Assembly (NCBI GenBank): GCA_028821575.1
Contig: JAPPFW010000095.1
Span: 1-64,000 of the forward strand
Length of the DNA stretch: 64,000 nt
From: a bacterium
GTDB lineage: Bacteria > Actinomycetota > Acidimicrobiia > Spongiisociales > Spongiisociaceae
Direction: 5' to 3'
Below, one piece after another: positions 35,806-50,112 of the stretch. Under the pieces are notes generated by a model. It saw only the letters and a list, made by a program, of their open reading frames with translations. It had not been told where the DNA came from and made no database searches. Every line of letters begins with the position of its first letter. The stretch's first letter is position 1. The translations under genes and the position numbers were made by a program.

Positions 35806-35994
35806 TCATCCGCAGCAATCGTCCATCGTTTCCCCTGACCAGGGATGGTTTGCTTCGTTGAGCACCTCGGCGACCCTCGCTCTGCGTCCCGAGCACTCCG
35901 GGCACACCCAGACGGTTGGAACCCTGGCGCCAGCCACCACGAGCGAGGGGTACTCATTCCGGCAGTCGGGGCACACGATCCTGAGCACCGGCAT
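35806..35994 (-). CDS. Small zinc-ribbon protein at the end of the CoM operon
   Basis: 62 residues: MPVLRIVCPDCRNEYPS and VWVCPECSGRR give two CxxC knuckles about 22 residues apart, and the C-terminus ends MDDCCG. The ATG at 35994 has an excellent ribosome binding site (GGAGGTAACC before ATG), which argues that this short gene is real. It begins 24 bases after the stop of the upstream lyase gene, so it probably belongs to that operon. It resembles FmdB-type ribbons in size only. A metal-chaperone, sulfur-carrier or partner role for CoM synthesis is speculation; the final Cys-Cys-Gly is unusual. Confidence 0.7.
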   Translation of the reverse strand: MPVLRIVCPDCRNEYPSLVVAGARVPTVWVCPECSGRRARVAEVLNEANHPWSGETMDDCCG

Positions 35995-36018
35995 GGTTAC
36001 CTCCCAACCGCGAGCCTG

Positions 36019-37614
36019 TCACCGCTCTGCCAACGCCGAAGCCTCCGACAGCAGCCGGGCGGTCACCGACTCGTGGGCGTCCCTGGTAGCTTGCGCCCAC
36101 TCTAGGGCTCCTCGAAGCCGCTCGAGTACCGATCCGCAGTGCTCCACCACCCGGCGAGGGGCCGATCCTCCCGGAGAGTCGCGCGACGAGATGATGGCAG
36201 CGACATCGCCCGCCCGCTCGACCGCCGAAGAGAGACCGGAGGGATCGATCCCGCACTCCCCCGCCGCCCGCTCCAGGTCCACCGCGGCCACCCTGCTCCC
36301 ATCGCGTTCGGACACGTCTGCCACCGCCCGCCCGACGACGCGGTACGCGCTCCGGTAGTCCAGGCCGCACCCCAGCACGAGGAGCTCGGTGAGGTCGGTG
36401 GCAGTGGTGAAGTTGTCGCCTGCAGAGTCGGTCAACCTCCCGACGTCGACCTCCATGGTCGTGACGACATCGGTCGCCAAGCGCAACAGGCGACCCGCTA
36501 GCTCCACGGAGCCTGTGACCTCGCCGTAGGCGTAGAGCCAGTTGTCGGTTCGGGCTGACGGGGTCCGCTGCGTGCTCATGAGACCGGTGGATCTGCCGAT
36601 CAGCGTCCCGCAGCCTCCGCGGATCACAGCTAAGGCGTACGGATTGCGCTTCTGGGGAAGCAACACCGAAGCCCTCGACGAGGAGCCTCCCAGGGCAACG
36701 TAACCGAATTGGGGGGTGGCGAACACCTCGAGGTCCTCGGCGAGGCGGTCCGCGTTCATTACCGCCTGGGTCGCGGCCACCGTGCAATCGACCATCCCGT
36801 CGGCCGCCCACATGCCGTCGCGAATGTGGCGTGTCGGCCGGCGGAATCCCAGCCGGTCGGAAATCCGCTCCCGGCTCAGGGGGATGGAAGTCCCGCCCAC
36901 CCCACCGGAACCGGCCGGCGAGAGGTTCGCCCACCGATGGCAACTCCGGACACGTTGGAGGTCCCGAGTGGCCTGTTCGGCGAAGCCAGCCAGGTAGTAG
37001 CCGAACGAGGAAGGCTGGGCAGGTTGCAGGTAAGTGGTGTCGTTCCATGGGACGGACGCCGATTCCAGCGCCCTCTGCACGAGACTGGTGGCAAGGCCCG
37101 CGACCGCCGCGTGAAGGTCGAGAAGGCGTCGGCGCAGGGCGAGGCGGATCGCCAGGCGTCCTGCCTCGCGCCGGGTCCGCCCGGTCGGGAGCCATCCTGC
37201 GGCCGCGCCGATCCGGCGTTCCAGCTCCCGTTCCCGGCTGTTGTACGCATCGCCGTATACGGCGTGGTAAGGGAATGACTCCACCGGGGTGGAGAGGAAG
37301 TCCAAGAGCACGCGGCACAACCGAGCCGCCGCCCCCCTCGGCGCGACCTCCGCATCCACCAGTTCCAGCACGTGGGCGAGGTCAGCCAGACACAAACCCT
37401 CGTGAAGGATCCGGGCATCTGCGACCTCCAGGCGGTAGCCGGCGTCGACCAGAGCCGGAGATGGTCCGGACCCCAATCGGCCCTCCGCCCCGAGGTATCC
37501 TTCGGGAGCCGCGACCGCCGCCGCCGGACCGGTGCCCCGAAGCACATTGCCCTCGATCACCGCCAAGAGGCCGTCGACCTCCGCCGCTAGCTCCTCCTCC
37601 GGCCGCGCGCTCAC
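36019..37614 (-). CDS. Aspartase/fumarase-superfamily lyase (argininosuccinate lyase-like), putative CoM biosynthesis
   Basis: 531 residues, all-helical superfamily fold. The mobile-loop signature is ALGGSSSRASVLLPQKRNPY (about 308-326), a variant of GSSxMPxKxNP. Where argininosuccinate lyases have THLQxAQP with the catalytic His, this protein reads TTYLQPAQP (about 193-201): His is replaced by Tyr. The GTG start overlaps the stop of the PLP enzyme. Bacterial CoM synthesis in Xanthobacter uses two members of this superfamily, for phosphate elimination from phosphosulfolactate and for a later decarboxylation; this gene is a candidate for one of them. A plain argininosuccinate lyase is unlikely from context. 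Confidence 0.75.
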   Translation of the reverse strand: MSARPEEELAAEVDGLLAVIEGNVLRGTGPAAAVAAPEGYLGAEGRLGSGPSPALVDAGYRLEVADARILHEGLCLADLAHVLELVDAEVAPRGAAARLCRVLLDFLSTPVESFPYHAVYGDAYNSRERELERRIGAAAGWLPTGRTRREAGRLAIRLALRRRLLDLHAAVAGLATSLVQRALESASVPWNDTTYLQPAQPSSFGYYLAGFAEQATRDLQRVRSCHRWANLSPAGSGGVGGTSIPLSRERISDRLGFRRPTRHIRDGMWAADGMVDCTVAATQAVMNADRLAEDLEVFATPQFGYVALGGSSSRASVLLPQKRNPYALAVIRGGCGTLIGRSTGLMSTQRTPSARTDNWLYAYGEVTGSVELAGRLLRLATDVVTTMEVDVGRLTDSAGDNFTTATDLTELLVLGCGLDYRSAYRVVGRAVADVSERDGSRVAAVDLERAAGECGIDPSGLSSAVERAGDVAAIISSRDSPGGSAPRRVVEHCGSVLERLRGALEWAQATRDAHESVTARLLSEASALAER

Positions 37615-47626: not shown

Positions 47627-47671
47627 CAGGTAGTCGGATACTGACCATCAACCACAACGGAGGCGCAAGGC

Positions 47672-49255
47672 ATGGCAACCAGGACTCAGACCGTATGGGA
47701 CATCCGCGACCAGGATCCGATCAGCATCCACGACTGGGGACCCGAGATCGACTCGATGCTCGAGGACCCGACGGACGACCGGGTGGTGTTCAATGTGGAC
47801 GAGGACGATCCGCGTCCGTACGACGCCATTTTCCTCGGCGGCGGAGCCGCCGGTAGGTTCGGGTCGGCCTACATGCGGGCCATGGGCGGTCGCCAACTCA
47901 TCATCGACCGGTGGCCGTTCCTCGGCGGTTCCTGTCCCCACAACGCCTGCGTCCCCCACCACCTGTTCAGTGAGGTCGCAGCCGAGTTGATGCTGGCCCG
48001 CACGTTCAGCGGACAGTTCTGGTTCCCCGATCTCGACGGCAAGATCACCTCGATCAAGGAGATCGTGGACCTGTTCCGCGCCGGCCGGATCGCTCCTCAC
48101 GCCATCATGAACTTCCAGAGCAAGGAGCAACTGGACCTCGAATACGTCCTCAATGCCCCGGGGACCGTCCTCGACGCCAACACCGTGGAGGTGGCCGGCC
48201 GGGTCTTCACCGCCAACAACCTGATCCTCGCCCTCGGCGCCCGGCCCCGGCCCCTGCCCTGCCCCGGCGCCGACCTGCACGGCGTCTACACCTACGAGTC
48301 GCTCGTCGAAGACCTTGACTACGAACCGGGTGACACCGTCGTGGTGATCGGCGGATCCAAGACCGCGGTCGAGTATGGCTGTTTTTTCCAGGCAACCGGA
48401 CGCCGGACCGTCATGGTCGTGCGCTCCCAGTTGCTGAAGCTCCTCGAGGACGCCGAGACCCGACACTACGTGATCACCATGATGGAGGAACAGGGCATGG
48501 AGATCTGGGAGGAATCGGTTGCCACCGAGGTGCACGGGGACGCCAACGGCAAGGTGAAGGGAATCACCGTCTCCACCCCGGACGGTGTGCAGTACATCGA
48601 GACCGACTTCGTCTTCCACGGGCTGGGCGAGATACCCAACTCGGAGATGCCCGCCGAAGTACTCGGCGTGAAGCTCAACGACGATGGCACCATCAAGGTC
48701 AATCCCCAGATGCAGACGTCGGTACCCAACGTCTATGCCATCGGCGACCTGCTCGGCCCACCGATGGAGATGTTCAAGGCCCGAAAGTCGGGAATGTACG
48801 CGTCGCGCCACATAATGGGGGAGGACGTCCACTACGAGTTCACGGAGTACCCCGACTTCATGCACACCCACTACGAGGTGAGTTGGTTCGGTATCGGCGA
48901 GGAGGAGGCGCGGGAGCGCTACGGGGAGGTAACGATCATCAAGATGCCTCCCGACTCCGAGGACGGTTGGGAGGTCGCTCTGCCAGCCACTGACCGGATG
49001 ATGCTGTACGCCTTCGCCAAGCCCCGGATGTCGGGCTTCCAGAAGCTGATCATCGCCTCCGAATCGCGGAAGGTGGTAGGCGCGCACCATGTCGGCGCAG
49101 GGGCCCGCGACGCGTTCCAGTACCTTTTCCAGCTCTACCGGAGGGGACTTACGGTCGACCAACTCGCGGAGATGGACGAGTTGTTCCTGAACCCGACCCA
49201 CTTCATCCAGCTCTCCCGCCTGCGAGCCGGCAACAAGAACCTCCAGGATCTGTGA
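47672..49255 (+). CDS. xecC: 2-ketopropyl-CoM oxidoreductase/carboxylase (2-KPCC)
   Basis: 527 residues, disulfide oxidoreductase fold. FAD motif [13 protein letters not shown], redox disulfide Cys88/Cys93 in [18 protein letters not shown] domain [14 protein letters not shown], and [11 protein letters not shown]. At the C-terminus the usual catalytic His-Glu pair (HPTxxE) is replaced: FLNPTHF places Phe505 and His510, equivalent to the Phe501/His506 that in Xanthobacter 2-KPCC excludes protons so that CO2 attacks the enolate. This distinguishes it from lipoamide, glutathione and mercuric reductases. It cleaves ketoalkyl-CoM and carboxylates the product to a beta-keto acid. ATG 47672 has GGAGG upstream. 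Confidence 0.92.
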
Positions 49256-50112
49256 ACCCCGCGGACCGGCCCGGCTGGTACGACCTGGCCGTCGCCGAGG
49301 AGGTACGCACCGGCCGGACGGGGAAGCCGCGGGCCCGTGGCATTACCATGGTGATCGACACCGGTCTCGGCTTGTCGCAGACCGCGGAACTCCTGGACAT
49401 GGCCGGCCAGTGGATCGACCACTGGAAGCTCAGCTTCGGCACTTCGGCACTGGTACCGGAGCCTGTCCTGCGGAAGAAGCTGGAACTGATCAACTCGACC
49501 GGAACCCTCACCTTCCCCGGTGGAACCCTGTTCGAGGCCGCCACCGCCCACCGGCACTGCCGGCACTACATGCGCGCCGCCCGCCGCATGGGTTTCACCG
49601 CCGTCGAGATTTCGGAGGGCACCTTCGACCTACCGCCTGAACGGCGTAGGCGGGCTATCGAGTGCGGTCTCAGCGCCGACCTGATCGTGATCAGCGAGGT
49701 GGGCAAGAAGGATCCGGAGACCCAGCCCGAGCCCGAGGACCTTGCTTCCCAGGTGCTGACCGATCTCGAGTGGGGCTCATCGTGGGTGGTGATGGAAGGA
49801 CGCGAGTCGGGAACGGGAGTCGGCGTGTACGACACCGCCGGCCACGTCGACCTCGAGGCCGTGGAGACCGTTGCAGCCCGTATCGGCGAGGCCAACCAAC
49901 GGCTGGTCTGGGAGGCGCCGCTCAAGGAACAGCAGACCACGCTGATCGACCGCTTCGGTATGAACGTGAACCTGGGCAACATCGCCCCGGAACGGGTTCT
50001 GGCGCTGGAAGCGTTACGTTCCGGGCTACGTTACGAGACGCTGAGATCCGTCACGGCTCGCTTGGAGGAGCAGAAGATCCTGGAGATCGAACGGCCCGAG
50101 CCGGAGGATTAG
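49252..50112 (+). CDS. comA: Phosphosulfolactate synthase, first step of CoM synthesis
   Basis: 286 residues of the ComA family (PF02679), a TIM barrel adding sulfite to phosphoenolpyruvate. Diagnostic segments: [59 protein letters not shown] and [16 protein letters not shown] start overlaps the 2-KPCC stop (GTGA), so the carboxylase and a CoM biosynthetic enzyme are translationally coupled. ComA homologues also occur in sporulating bacteria for sulfolactate, but the neighbours favour CoM. Confidence 0.9.

Follow-up and report, generated by a model that had tools for sequence, protein, structure and literature searches.

A chromosomal gene cluster predicted to serve coenzyme M-dependent epoxide breakdown in the family Spongiisociaceae (Acidimicrobiia)

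Results and discussion

Thirteen genes between positions 35806 and 50112 of a 64,000-base stretch of DNA from a bacterium of the family Spongiisociaceae encode relatives of the enzymes of coenzyme M (CoM)-dependent epoxide metabolism, together with a homologue of each of the five proteins of CoM biosynthesis, XcbA-E. The whole stretch, referred to hereafter as the window, comprises bases 1-64000 of the 88427-base contig C80 of a draft genome (assembly GCA_028821575.1, labelled G000; 4.14 Mb, 100 contigs, 96% complete). In bacteria, CoM has been known from a small number of alkene users and of methanotrophs, where its genes are often found on plasmids or islands. Judging from the genes, their conservation and their setting, we consider it quite probable that the cluster works as a chromosomal module, passed on vertically, for the CoM-dependent breakdown of epoxides.

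The genes were delimited from open reading frames (ORFs) and by Pfam and NCBIfam models and form two divergent operons. The minus-strand operon, which runs from 43059 down to 35806, carries a short-chain dehydrogenase/reductase (SDR1), the MetE-like epoxyalkane:CoM transferase (EaCoMT), XcbA, XcbD, XcbE, XcbC and a small zinc-ribbon protein. The plus-strand operon (43080-50112) carries a second dehydrogenase (SDR2), CoA-transferase subunits A and B, an acyl-CoA synthetase, 2-KPCC and ComA. Six 4-base overlaps were located (37611-37614, 38555-38558, 39898-39901, 44763-44766, 45569-45572 and 49252-49255). That at 38555-38558 was counted with the pyridoxal phosphate (PLP) gene xcbE starting at TTG 38558, which is our own reading of the sequence; this start differs from that of the long ORF and overlaps the stop of xcbD. 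A preliminary description of the window had named most of these gene classes and the two overlapping operons; all the classes it named were recovered in their expected families and at the coordinates it gave, and the operon layout was confirmed. The identities to Xanthobacter EaCoMT and 2-KPCC (77% and 66%) and a gene order shared with ten close loci go beyond what chance would give. For five of the proteins, the columns that are at least 97% conserved elsewhere were compared with the window, which kept 135/135 in EaCoMT, 135/135 in 2-KPCC, 36/36 in ComA, 63/63 in XcbA and 80/81 in XcbD.

How the products would act, on which substrate, from what source of epoxide and whether for feeding or for detoxification we infer as follows. 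CoM would be made from phosphoenolpyruvate and sulfite by ComA/XcbB, XcbC, XcbD, XcbA and XcbE; the later steps are placed in the sequence of the bacterial CoM pathway reportedly set out by Wu et al. in 2022. PMC12068725 cites Wu et al. 2022 as the complete bacterial CoM pathway. EaCoMT would open a short epoxide using CoM, and SDR1, perhaps also SDR2, would oxidise the hydroxyalkyl-CoM to ketoalkyl-CoM. Cleavage of the thioether and carboxylation of the product by 2-KPCC would return CoM and a beta-keto acid (acetoacetate in the case of epoxypropane) or a C2 equivalent, and the CoA-transferase and acyl-CoA synthetase would activate this acid so that it can enter central metabolism.

Xanthobacter-type EaCoMT and 2-KPCC

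EaCoMT (40907-42013, minus strand) was 77% identical to both copies of the enzyme in Xanthobacter autotrophicus Py2 and 46-49% identical to EtnE of Mycolicibacterium chubuense NBB4 and Nocardioides sp. JS614. The gene is single-copy in G000. In a tree of 85 rows the window protein fell among the EaCoMTs, which were split from 11 MetE-like paralogues from the fetched loci with an SH-aLRT support of 100. The alignment showed that the HxC...C motif is kept, the segments HxCWGN and TDCGL being common to Py2, JS614 and NBB4; we take the His-x-Cys and the distal Cys to be the zinc ligands.

The product of 47672-49255 (plus strand) was 66% identical to Py2 2-KPCC and scored 788.6 bits against the structure 1mo9, compared with 106.2 for the best glutathione reductase. 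It keeps the equivalents of Arg56, Cys82, His84, Cys87, Met140, Arg365, Phe501 and His506, residues that we assume to be catalytic or CoM-binding; Phe501 and His506 presumably replace the His-Glu of disulfide reductases. Of the two cysteines, only one is present in the FAD reductases found in the clusters of JS614 and NBB4. The window protein was placed inside the 2-KPCC group by a 46-row tree. Because the outgroup of that tree consisted of only three non-2-KPCC reductases, the bit-score comparison counts as well. The preliminary description had proposed that its pathway would fall if the two proteins grouped with methionine synthases and with ordinary disulfide reductases and no CoM was made; neither grouping was seen.

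Generic models do call EaCoMT a methionine synthase and 2-KPCC a mercuric/lipoamide reductase-like protein, as would be expected if the genes were a disulfide reductase and methionine synthase-like set unrelated to CoM. These scores were far below the cut-offs, and both the trees and the conserved residues argue otherwise. Moreover, a more ordinary disulfide reductase is encoded at 56541-57905 of the window; it reached 447 bits against a reductase model (cut-off 479), compared with at most 161 bits for 2-KPCC. A set unrelated to CoM is therefore hardly credible.

Dehydrogenases and acid-activating genes

SDR1 (42271-43059, minus strand, likely start ATG 43011) had 2cfc, an R-HPCDH, as its best match in the Protein Data Bank (PDB). 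It keeps the equivalents of Arg152, Trp195 and Arg196 of that enzyme, of which Arg152 and Arg196 are, we presume, sulfonate-binding. It was also 59% identical to NOCA_RS00605, the neighbour of a 2-KPCC-like gene in JS614. SDR2 (43080-43847, plus strand) resembles the dehydrogenase of the actinobacterial ethene clusters (62.6-63.0% identity to JS614 and NBB4) more than Xaut_5073 of Py2 (50%); its best PDB match was 4gh5, which we take to be S-HPCDH.

The next three plus-strand genes encode CoA-transferase subunit A (43852-44766; glutaconate CoA-transferase-like, PF01144, PDB matches 5mzw, 1poi and 6con), subunit B (44763-45572; 5n00 and 1poi) and a single-chain acyl-CoA synthetase of the ADP-forming type (45569-47626; PF13549, PF13607 and PF13380). 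Subunits A and B were 62-63% and 62-66% identical, respectively, to those of NBB4 and JS614 and 47-49% identical to those of the third Py2 cluster; the synthetase was 41-49% identical to the NBB4 and JS614 proteins and 42% to that of the third Py2 cluster. The preliminary description had regarded the additional genes as lying outside the described pathway. This proved mistaken, since CoA-transferase and synthetase genes have already been described in ethene/vinyl chloride and methanotroph clusters; PMC8727900, PMC11507031 and PMC6440738 include them in ethene-type clusters, and in PMC6440738 they serve to distinguish organisms that use ethylene from those that use propylene.

These genes bring in an alternative to epoxypropane as the substrate, namely an epoxyethane (ethene-type) route in which the CoA-transferase, synthetase and SDR2 would handle C2 units and 2-KPCC would serve as a CoM reductase/carboxylase. 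SDR2, both transferase subunits and, by a small margin, the synthetase are closer to JS614 and NBB4 than to Py2, and a similar gene set is interpreted as an epoxyethane route in PMC11507031. On the other hand, both EaCoMT and 2-KPCC belong to the Py2 (propylene) type, SDR1 has the residues of R-HPCDH, and Py2, itself a propylene user, has a third cluster of CoA-transferase, synthetase and SDRs. We regard the C2 route as a real possibility, somewhat short of an even chance. The window thus carries both ethylene-type and propylene-type signatures, and the substrate therefore cannot be read from gene content.

CoM biosynthesis genes

Three of the biosynthesis proteins passed curated NCBIfam cut-offs: ComA/XcbB, the phosphosulfolactate synthase (49252-50112, plus strand; TIGR03849, 305 bits for a cut-off of 280), XcbD of the aspartase/fumarase superfamily (38555-39901, minus strand; 657.9 bits, cut-off 600), which carries a GS...PQKRN signature, and XcbA (39898-40857, minus strand, likely start ATG 40809; CoM_XcbA_fam, 375 bits, cut-off 150). 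ComA was 52-58% identical to the Py2 proteins (52% to Xaut_4872/5052). For the two remaining minus-strand genes, the best NCBIfam families were XcbC (36019-37614; aspartase/fumarase superfamily, PF00206) and XcbE (37611-38558; D-cysteine desulfhydrase family of PLP enzymes, PF00291). XcbC, which in PMC8727900 is given the role of converting phosphosulfolactate to sulfoacrylate, was 53-55% identical to the NBB4 and JS614 proteins and 38-39% to Py2 XcbC. XcbE was 46%, 43% and 38% identical to its counterparts in JS614, NBB4 and Py2, and retains the GGNK motif.

The preliminary description was right that a set of CoM-biosynthesis homologues is present, with ComA and XcbD above their cut-offs, and the set is full; it had failed to recognise the gene at 39898-40857 (Pfam DUF7714) as xcbA. 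The XcbA family model gives Xaut_5051 of Py2 470 bits. Judged from the NBB4 locus, the window protein agrees in position and length with the hypothetical protein 'xcbF1' of PMC8727900. Five cysteines were invariant in an alignment of 40 sequences (the window protein and 39 of the 49 XcbA frames found). An AlphaFold2 model was confident (pLDDT 93.6), and a Foldseek search with it gave no convincing solved relative: the best E value was 7.3e-4 at a TM of 0.15-0.17, and no listed match had a TM above 0.35. The DUF7714/XcbA model also matched the control genome of Methanosarcina acetivorans, a methanogen that makes CoM by another route.

Points against a functional pathway

Several observations weigh against a complete and working pathway. 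XcbC (395 bits, cut-off 575) and XcbE (212 bits, cut-off 450) stay below their NCBIfam cut-offs, and the window XcbE is the weakest and most divergent of the XcbE and XcbC proteins compared. Those of JS614 and NBB4 also fell below the cut-offs (332 and 399; 313 and 310 bits), while those of Py2 passed (742 and 523). SDR2 has a Thr in place of Arg211, with Lys214 conserved; Arg211 and Lys214 are what we take to be the sulfonate-binding pair of S-HPCDH, and both occur in Xaut_5073, which the residue numbering fits. Because one of the two sulfonate residues is changed, SDR2 was not filed as S-HPCDH. In addition, PF02332 (diiron alkene, phenol and methane monooxygenases) had no match in G000, no MEDS regulator was found in that genome, and none of the 13 genes is regulator-like, the zinc ribbon perhaps excepted. 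Finally, the assembly is of draft quality (completeness 96%, contamination 5.7%).

Of the full Xanthobacter epoxide set announced by the preliminary description, EaCoMT, 2-KPCC and an R-HPCDH-type SDR were thus borne out; with the partial S-HPCDH signature of SDR2, the four-enzyme set as a whole is supported only in part. The cluster also supplies divergent XcbC, XcbE and ComA sequences, an SDR2 minus one sulfonate residue and a confident XcbA model.

Source of the epoxide

The preliminary description had noted no monooxygenase in the window, and the PF02332 search gave no match anywhere in G000. This search covered 18 genomes or records and matched five of them: the plasmids of Py2 and JS614 and the genomes of loci L055, L056 and L021. 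No member of the particulate methane monooxygenase family PF02461 was found in G000, a result of little weight as no control matched either. With no diiron alkene monooxygenase detected in G000, the probable sources of the epoxide are external ones (other microbes) or side reactions of other oxygenases, such as those of the six P450 frames in this genome.

Two of 15 family genomes do have a diiron monooxygenase, namely G017, the one same-genus genome searched, which holds locus L021, and G027. Their alpha subunits share 92% identity and show 47% identity to the alkene monooxygenase (AMO) of Py2, and the genes nearest Py2 AMO lie at 4165-7361 of locus L104 (G008 contig C161) and in locus L121 (G027). 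The composition of C161 fits the cluster contig of the relative, which, with the 92% identical alpha subunit in G027, makes contamination less likely. A search for an empty site with 20 kb of C161 returned only short scattered matches in G000 and no syntenic site. These relatives, and a genome that is 96% complete, leave some room for an alkene monooxygenase of its own that was missed through assembly gaps. Against this, the other 12 family genomes have no PF02332 match, some of them being only 72-84% complete and two lacking the CoM pathway. We consider a missed monooxygenase unlikely.

The pathway might also serve detoxification only, removing chance epoxides formed by cellular oxygenases and yielding no growth. 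The absence of PF02332 from G000 and the six P450 frames would suit such a role, for which there is a precedent in Methylohalobius crimeensis: in PMC11507031, ethylene raises a similar gene set, and no growth on ethylene is concluded. CoM synthesis with acid activation looks costly for this alone, the pathway is conserved in 13 of 15 family genomes, and two of the family genomes have an alkene monooxygenase-like enzyme. A purely detoxifying role is possible in our view, although less likely than not.

Chromosomal setting and distribution

One scan of genome contigs yielded 76 loci with EaCoMT relatives. Ten metagenome-assembled genome (MAG) loci (L008-L014, L021, L029 and L061, labelled Acidimicrobiia or unnamed bacteria) are close to the window, with EaCoMT identities of 85-98%, and repeat its gene order as far as each contig extends; L010 and L013 are short and hold part of the cluster only. 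L021 is an exception, with ComA and XcbC missing at the two cluster edges. Loss of CoM synthesis in this nearest relative, with uptake of CoM or a precursor, was considered and not upheld, as a search of the same genome for ComA located it on another contig. In L008 (7492-9468), L061 (7323-8804) and L029 (8591-9244) the two SDRs are separated by an additional gene or a remnant. A homologue of this gene occurs about 29 kb away on the window contig (71938-73464) and by eye resembles a membrane glycosyltransferase.

XcbA was found in 13 of 15 family genomes, G000 included, and in 20 of 395 sampled genomes of the class, 13 of the 20 being within the family; the two family genomes that lack it also lack ComA. 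A UDP-sugar dehydrogenase/LytR flank is common to seven of the eight close loci that reach it (L014 differs), and a gene for an F420-dependent LLM oxidoreductase flanks the cluster in all seven that reach that side. The cluster is thus a settled chromosomal trait of the family. The window also contains secA, prfB, ftsE, smpB and tmRNA, in accordance with the chromosomal setting beside housekeeping genes proposed earlier, and its composition is uniform throughout. The known clusters, often on plasmids or islands, and a tRNA-Lys at 52842-52931 are what would suggest a plasmid or island acquired in the recent past, or else an artefact of binning. With the shared flanks, uniform composition and housekeeping genes all opposed to it, such an origin is very improbable.

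The oxidoreductase gene (50365-51285, minus strand; TIGR03564, 285 bits, cut-off 234) is possibly linked to the cluster. Its product was 50.6% identical to NOCA_RS00640, beside the second ethene cluster of JS614. Genes for F420 lie at 29717-31338 of the window (cofD-like, 245 bits for a cut-off of 257; cofE, 254 bits for a cut-off of 181).

Two of the ten close loci have a documented sponge source. The bin76/MPNA locus came from Aplysina aerophoba (PMC5649159), and another, matched by isolate name, from Petrosia ficiformis specimen 277c (PMC8941161). For the other eight a sponge source is suggested by bin names alone. Among the papers listed in literature searches, which covered few subscription papers, none was by its title about CoM-dependent epoxide metabolism in sponges. 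One sponge study (PMC9999580) names coenzyme M only through methyl-CoM reductase, and the other sponge studies examined for the term make no mention of it. The pathway itself is known, but its settled place in this family seems not to have been described before. As two members of the family are documented from sponges, its stable CoM trait means that a part played by short epoxides or alkenes in sponge metabolism can be tested. More speculatively, and with no great likelihood, epoxides could be a shared currency in sponge holobionts, with an Acidimicrobiia family acting partly as an epoxide scavenger by means of a core chromosomal CoM pathway, in most members unaccompanied by a monooxygenase. 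An alkene monooxygenase next to a CoM cluster is carried by the gammaproteobacteria APA_bin_93 and Plut_88898, whose sponge origin is suggested by their bin names. In the gammaproteobacterial MAG loci L055 and L056, an EtnA/EtnC monooxygenase lies directly beside EaCoMT and the CoM genes.

Comparison with known clusters and mixed origin

The clusters of Py2 on pXAUT01 (Xaut_4865-4875, 5047-5055 and 5065-5075) share with the window EaCoMT, 2-KPCC, ComA, two SDRs, XcbA-E and the zinc ribbon Xaut_4866. They differ in being plasmid-borne, in forming three partly redundant clusters with an alkene monooxygenase beside one, and in gene order, and the window XcbA, XcbC, XcbD and XcbE are only 37-44% identical to those of Py2. 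The etn clusters of JS614 and NBB4 are the closest named references for XcbA, XcbC, XcbD, XcbE, SDR2, the CoA-transferase and the synthetase (41-66%), with the qualification that the synthetase is about equally close to NBB4 and Py2. The JS614 plasmid also carries 2-KPCC-like (57%) and SDR1-like (59%) genes. Unlike the window, these two clusters are plasmid-borne and have monooxygenase genes and MEDS/CdaR regulators.

A similar gene set with no alkene monooxygenase occurs in M. crimeensis and other methanotroph loci (L020, L023, L038-L041), where, in contrast to the window, methane monooxygenase is a likely source of the epoxide. The ethylene response of the set in M. crimeensis also speaks for a working module in the window. 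According to PMC11507031, the EtnE of M. crimeensis is 77% identical to that of Py2, and its cluster differs from ours in lying on a genomic island and in having a MEDS regulator and a sulfoacetaldehyde dehydrogenase. A cluster that lacks a monooxygenase has thus already been published, in a genomic island.

Origins were examined with quick trees supported by SH-aLRT only. Within the Py2 type, to which it belongs, EaCoMT of the window group has a mostly actinobacterial set as its sister. 2-KPCC, with supports of 81-91, and ComA, with a deep split of 100, fall inside proteobacterial types. For XcbD and XcbA, deep splits of 100 set them with the etn type of actinobacteria, and by identity comparison only, SDR2, the CoA-transferase, XcbC and XcbE are nearer JS614 and NBB4. 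Given these mixed proteobacterial and actinobacterial affinities, the cluster seems to be a hybrid that combines two gene stocks.

A distinct EaCoMT branch (62-63%) was formed by L063, L067, L074, L076, L078 and L079, from Porisulfidus-type and similar bins. CoM genes were present in 5/6, and no 2-KPCC was seen in the fetched stretches. The EaCoMT of L079, a Nitrospira-labelled locus, was identical to that of L067, and L079 may be mis-binned.

A zinc-ribbon protein linked to Py2-type EaCoMT

The last minus-strand gene (35806-35994), with GGAGGT upstream of its ATG, encodes a 62-residue protein with the pattern CxxC...CxxC...CC, a homologue of Xaut_4866. The latter is annotated as hypothetical and lies between EaCoMT and 2-KPCC in the xec operon of Py2; it is, we assume, the old ORF2. 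The window protein reaches no Pfam or NCBIfam cut-off, and its homologue in Py2 comes closest to zinc ribbons of the FmdB type. Relatives (E at most 1e-4) were found across phyla in 66 of the 76 EaCoMT loci, a count that leaves out the short re-fetches L100 and L101 and the EaCoMT pieces below 60 residues in L082 and L083. All 66 are on the EaCoMT strand, and 58 are within 300 bases of EaCoMT; the eight distant ones belong to the close-locus group, 3.4-5.3 kb downstream. Of the ten loci without a match, five end no more than 450 bases downstream of EaCoMT, and two of the five are in the close group; in the remaining five (L015, L019, L026, L031 and L048) it was not found despite room. The other fetched loci, 334 kb with some overlap, yielded no relative; the clusters of JS614 and NBB4 are among them. 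A related zinc ribbon occurs in L002 (17200-17397). The four CxxC cysteines were all kept in the 62 correctly extracted rows (of 67). The protein is linked to Py2-type EaCoMT, and our guess is that it supplies zinc to that enzyme. The gene set as a whole is apparently intact and family-wide; its hybrid make-up, its connection with sponges and the zinc ribbon merit specialist attention.

Repeats

In the gap between the divergent operons, a repeat search gave short repeats only. Elsewhere in the window, at 17935-19366, a 297-base tandem repeat (4.8 copies, 99% matches) lies within a 1673-residue minus-strand frame (17860-22881).

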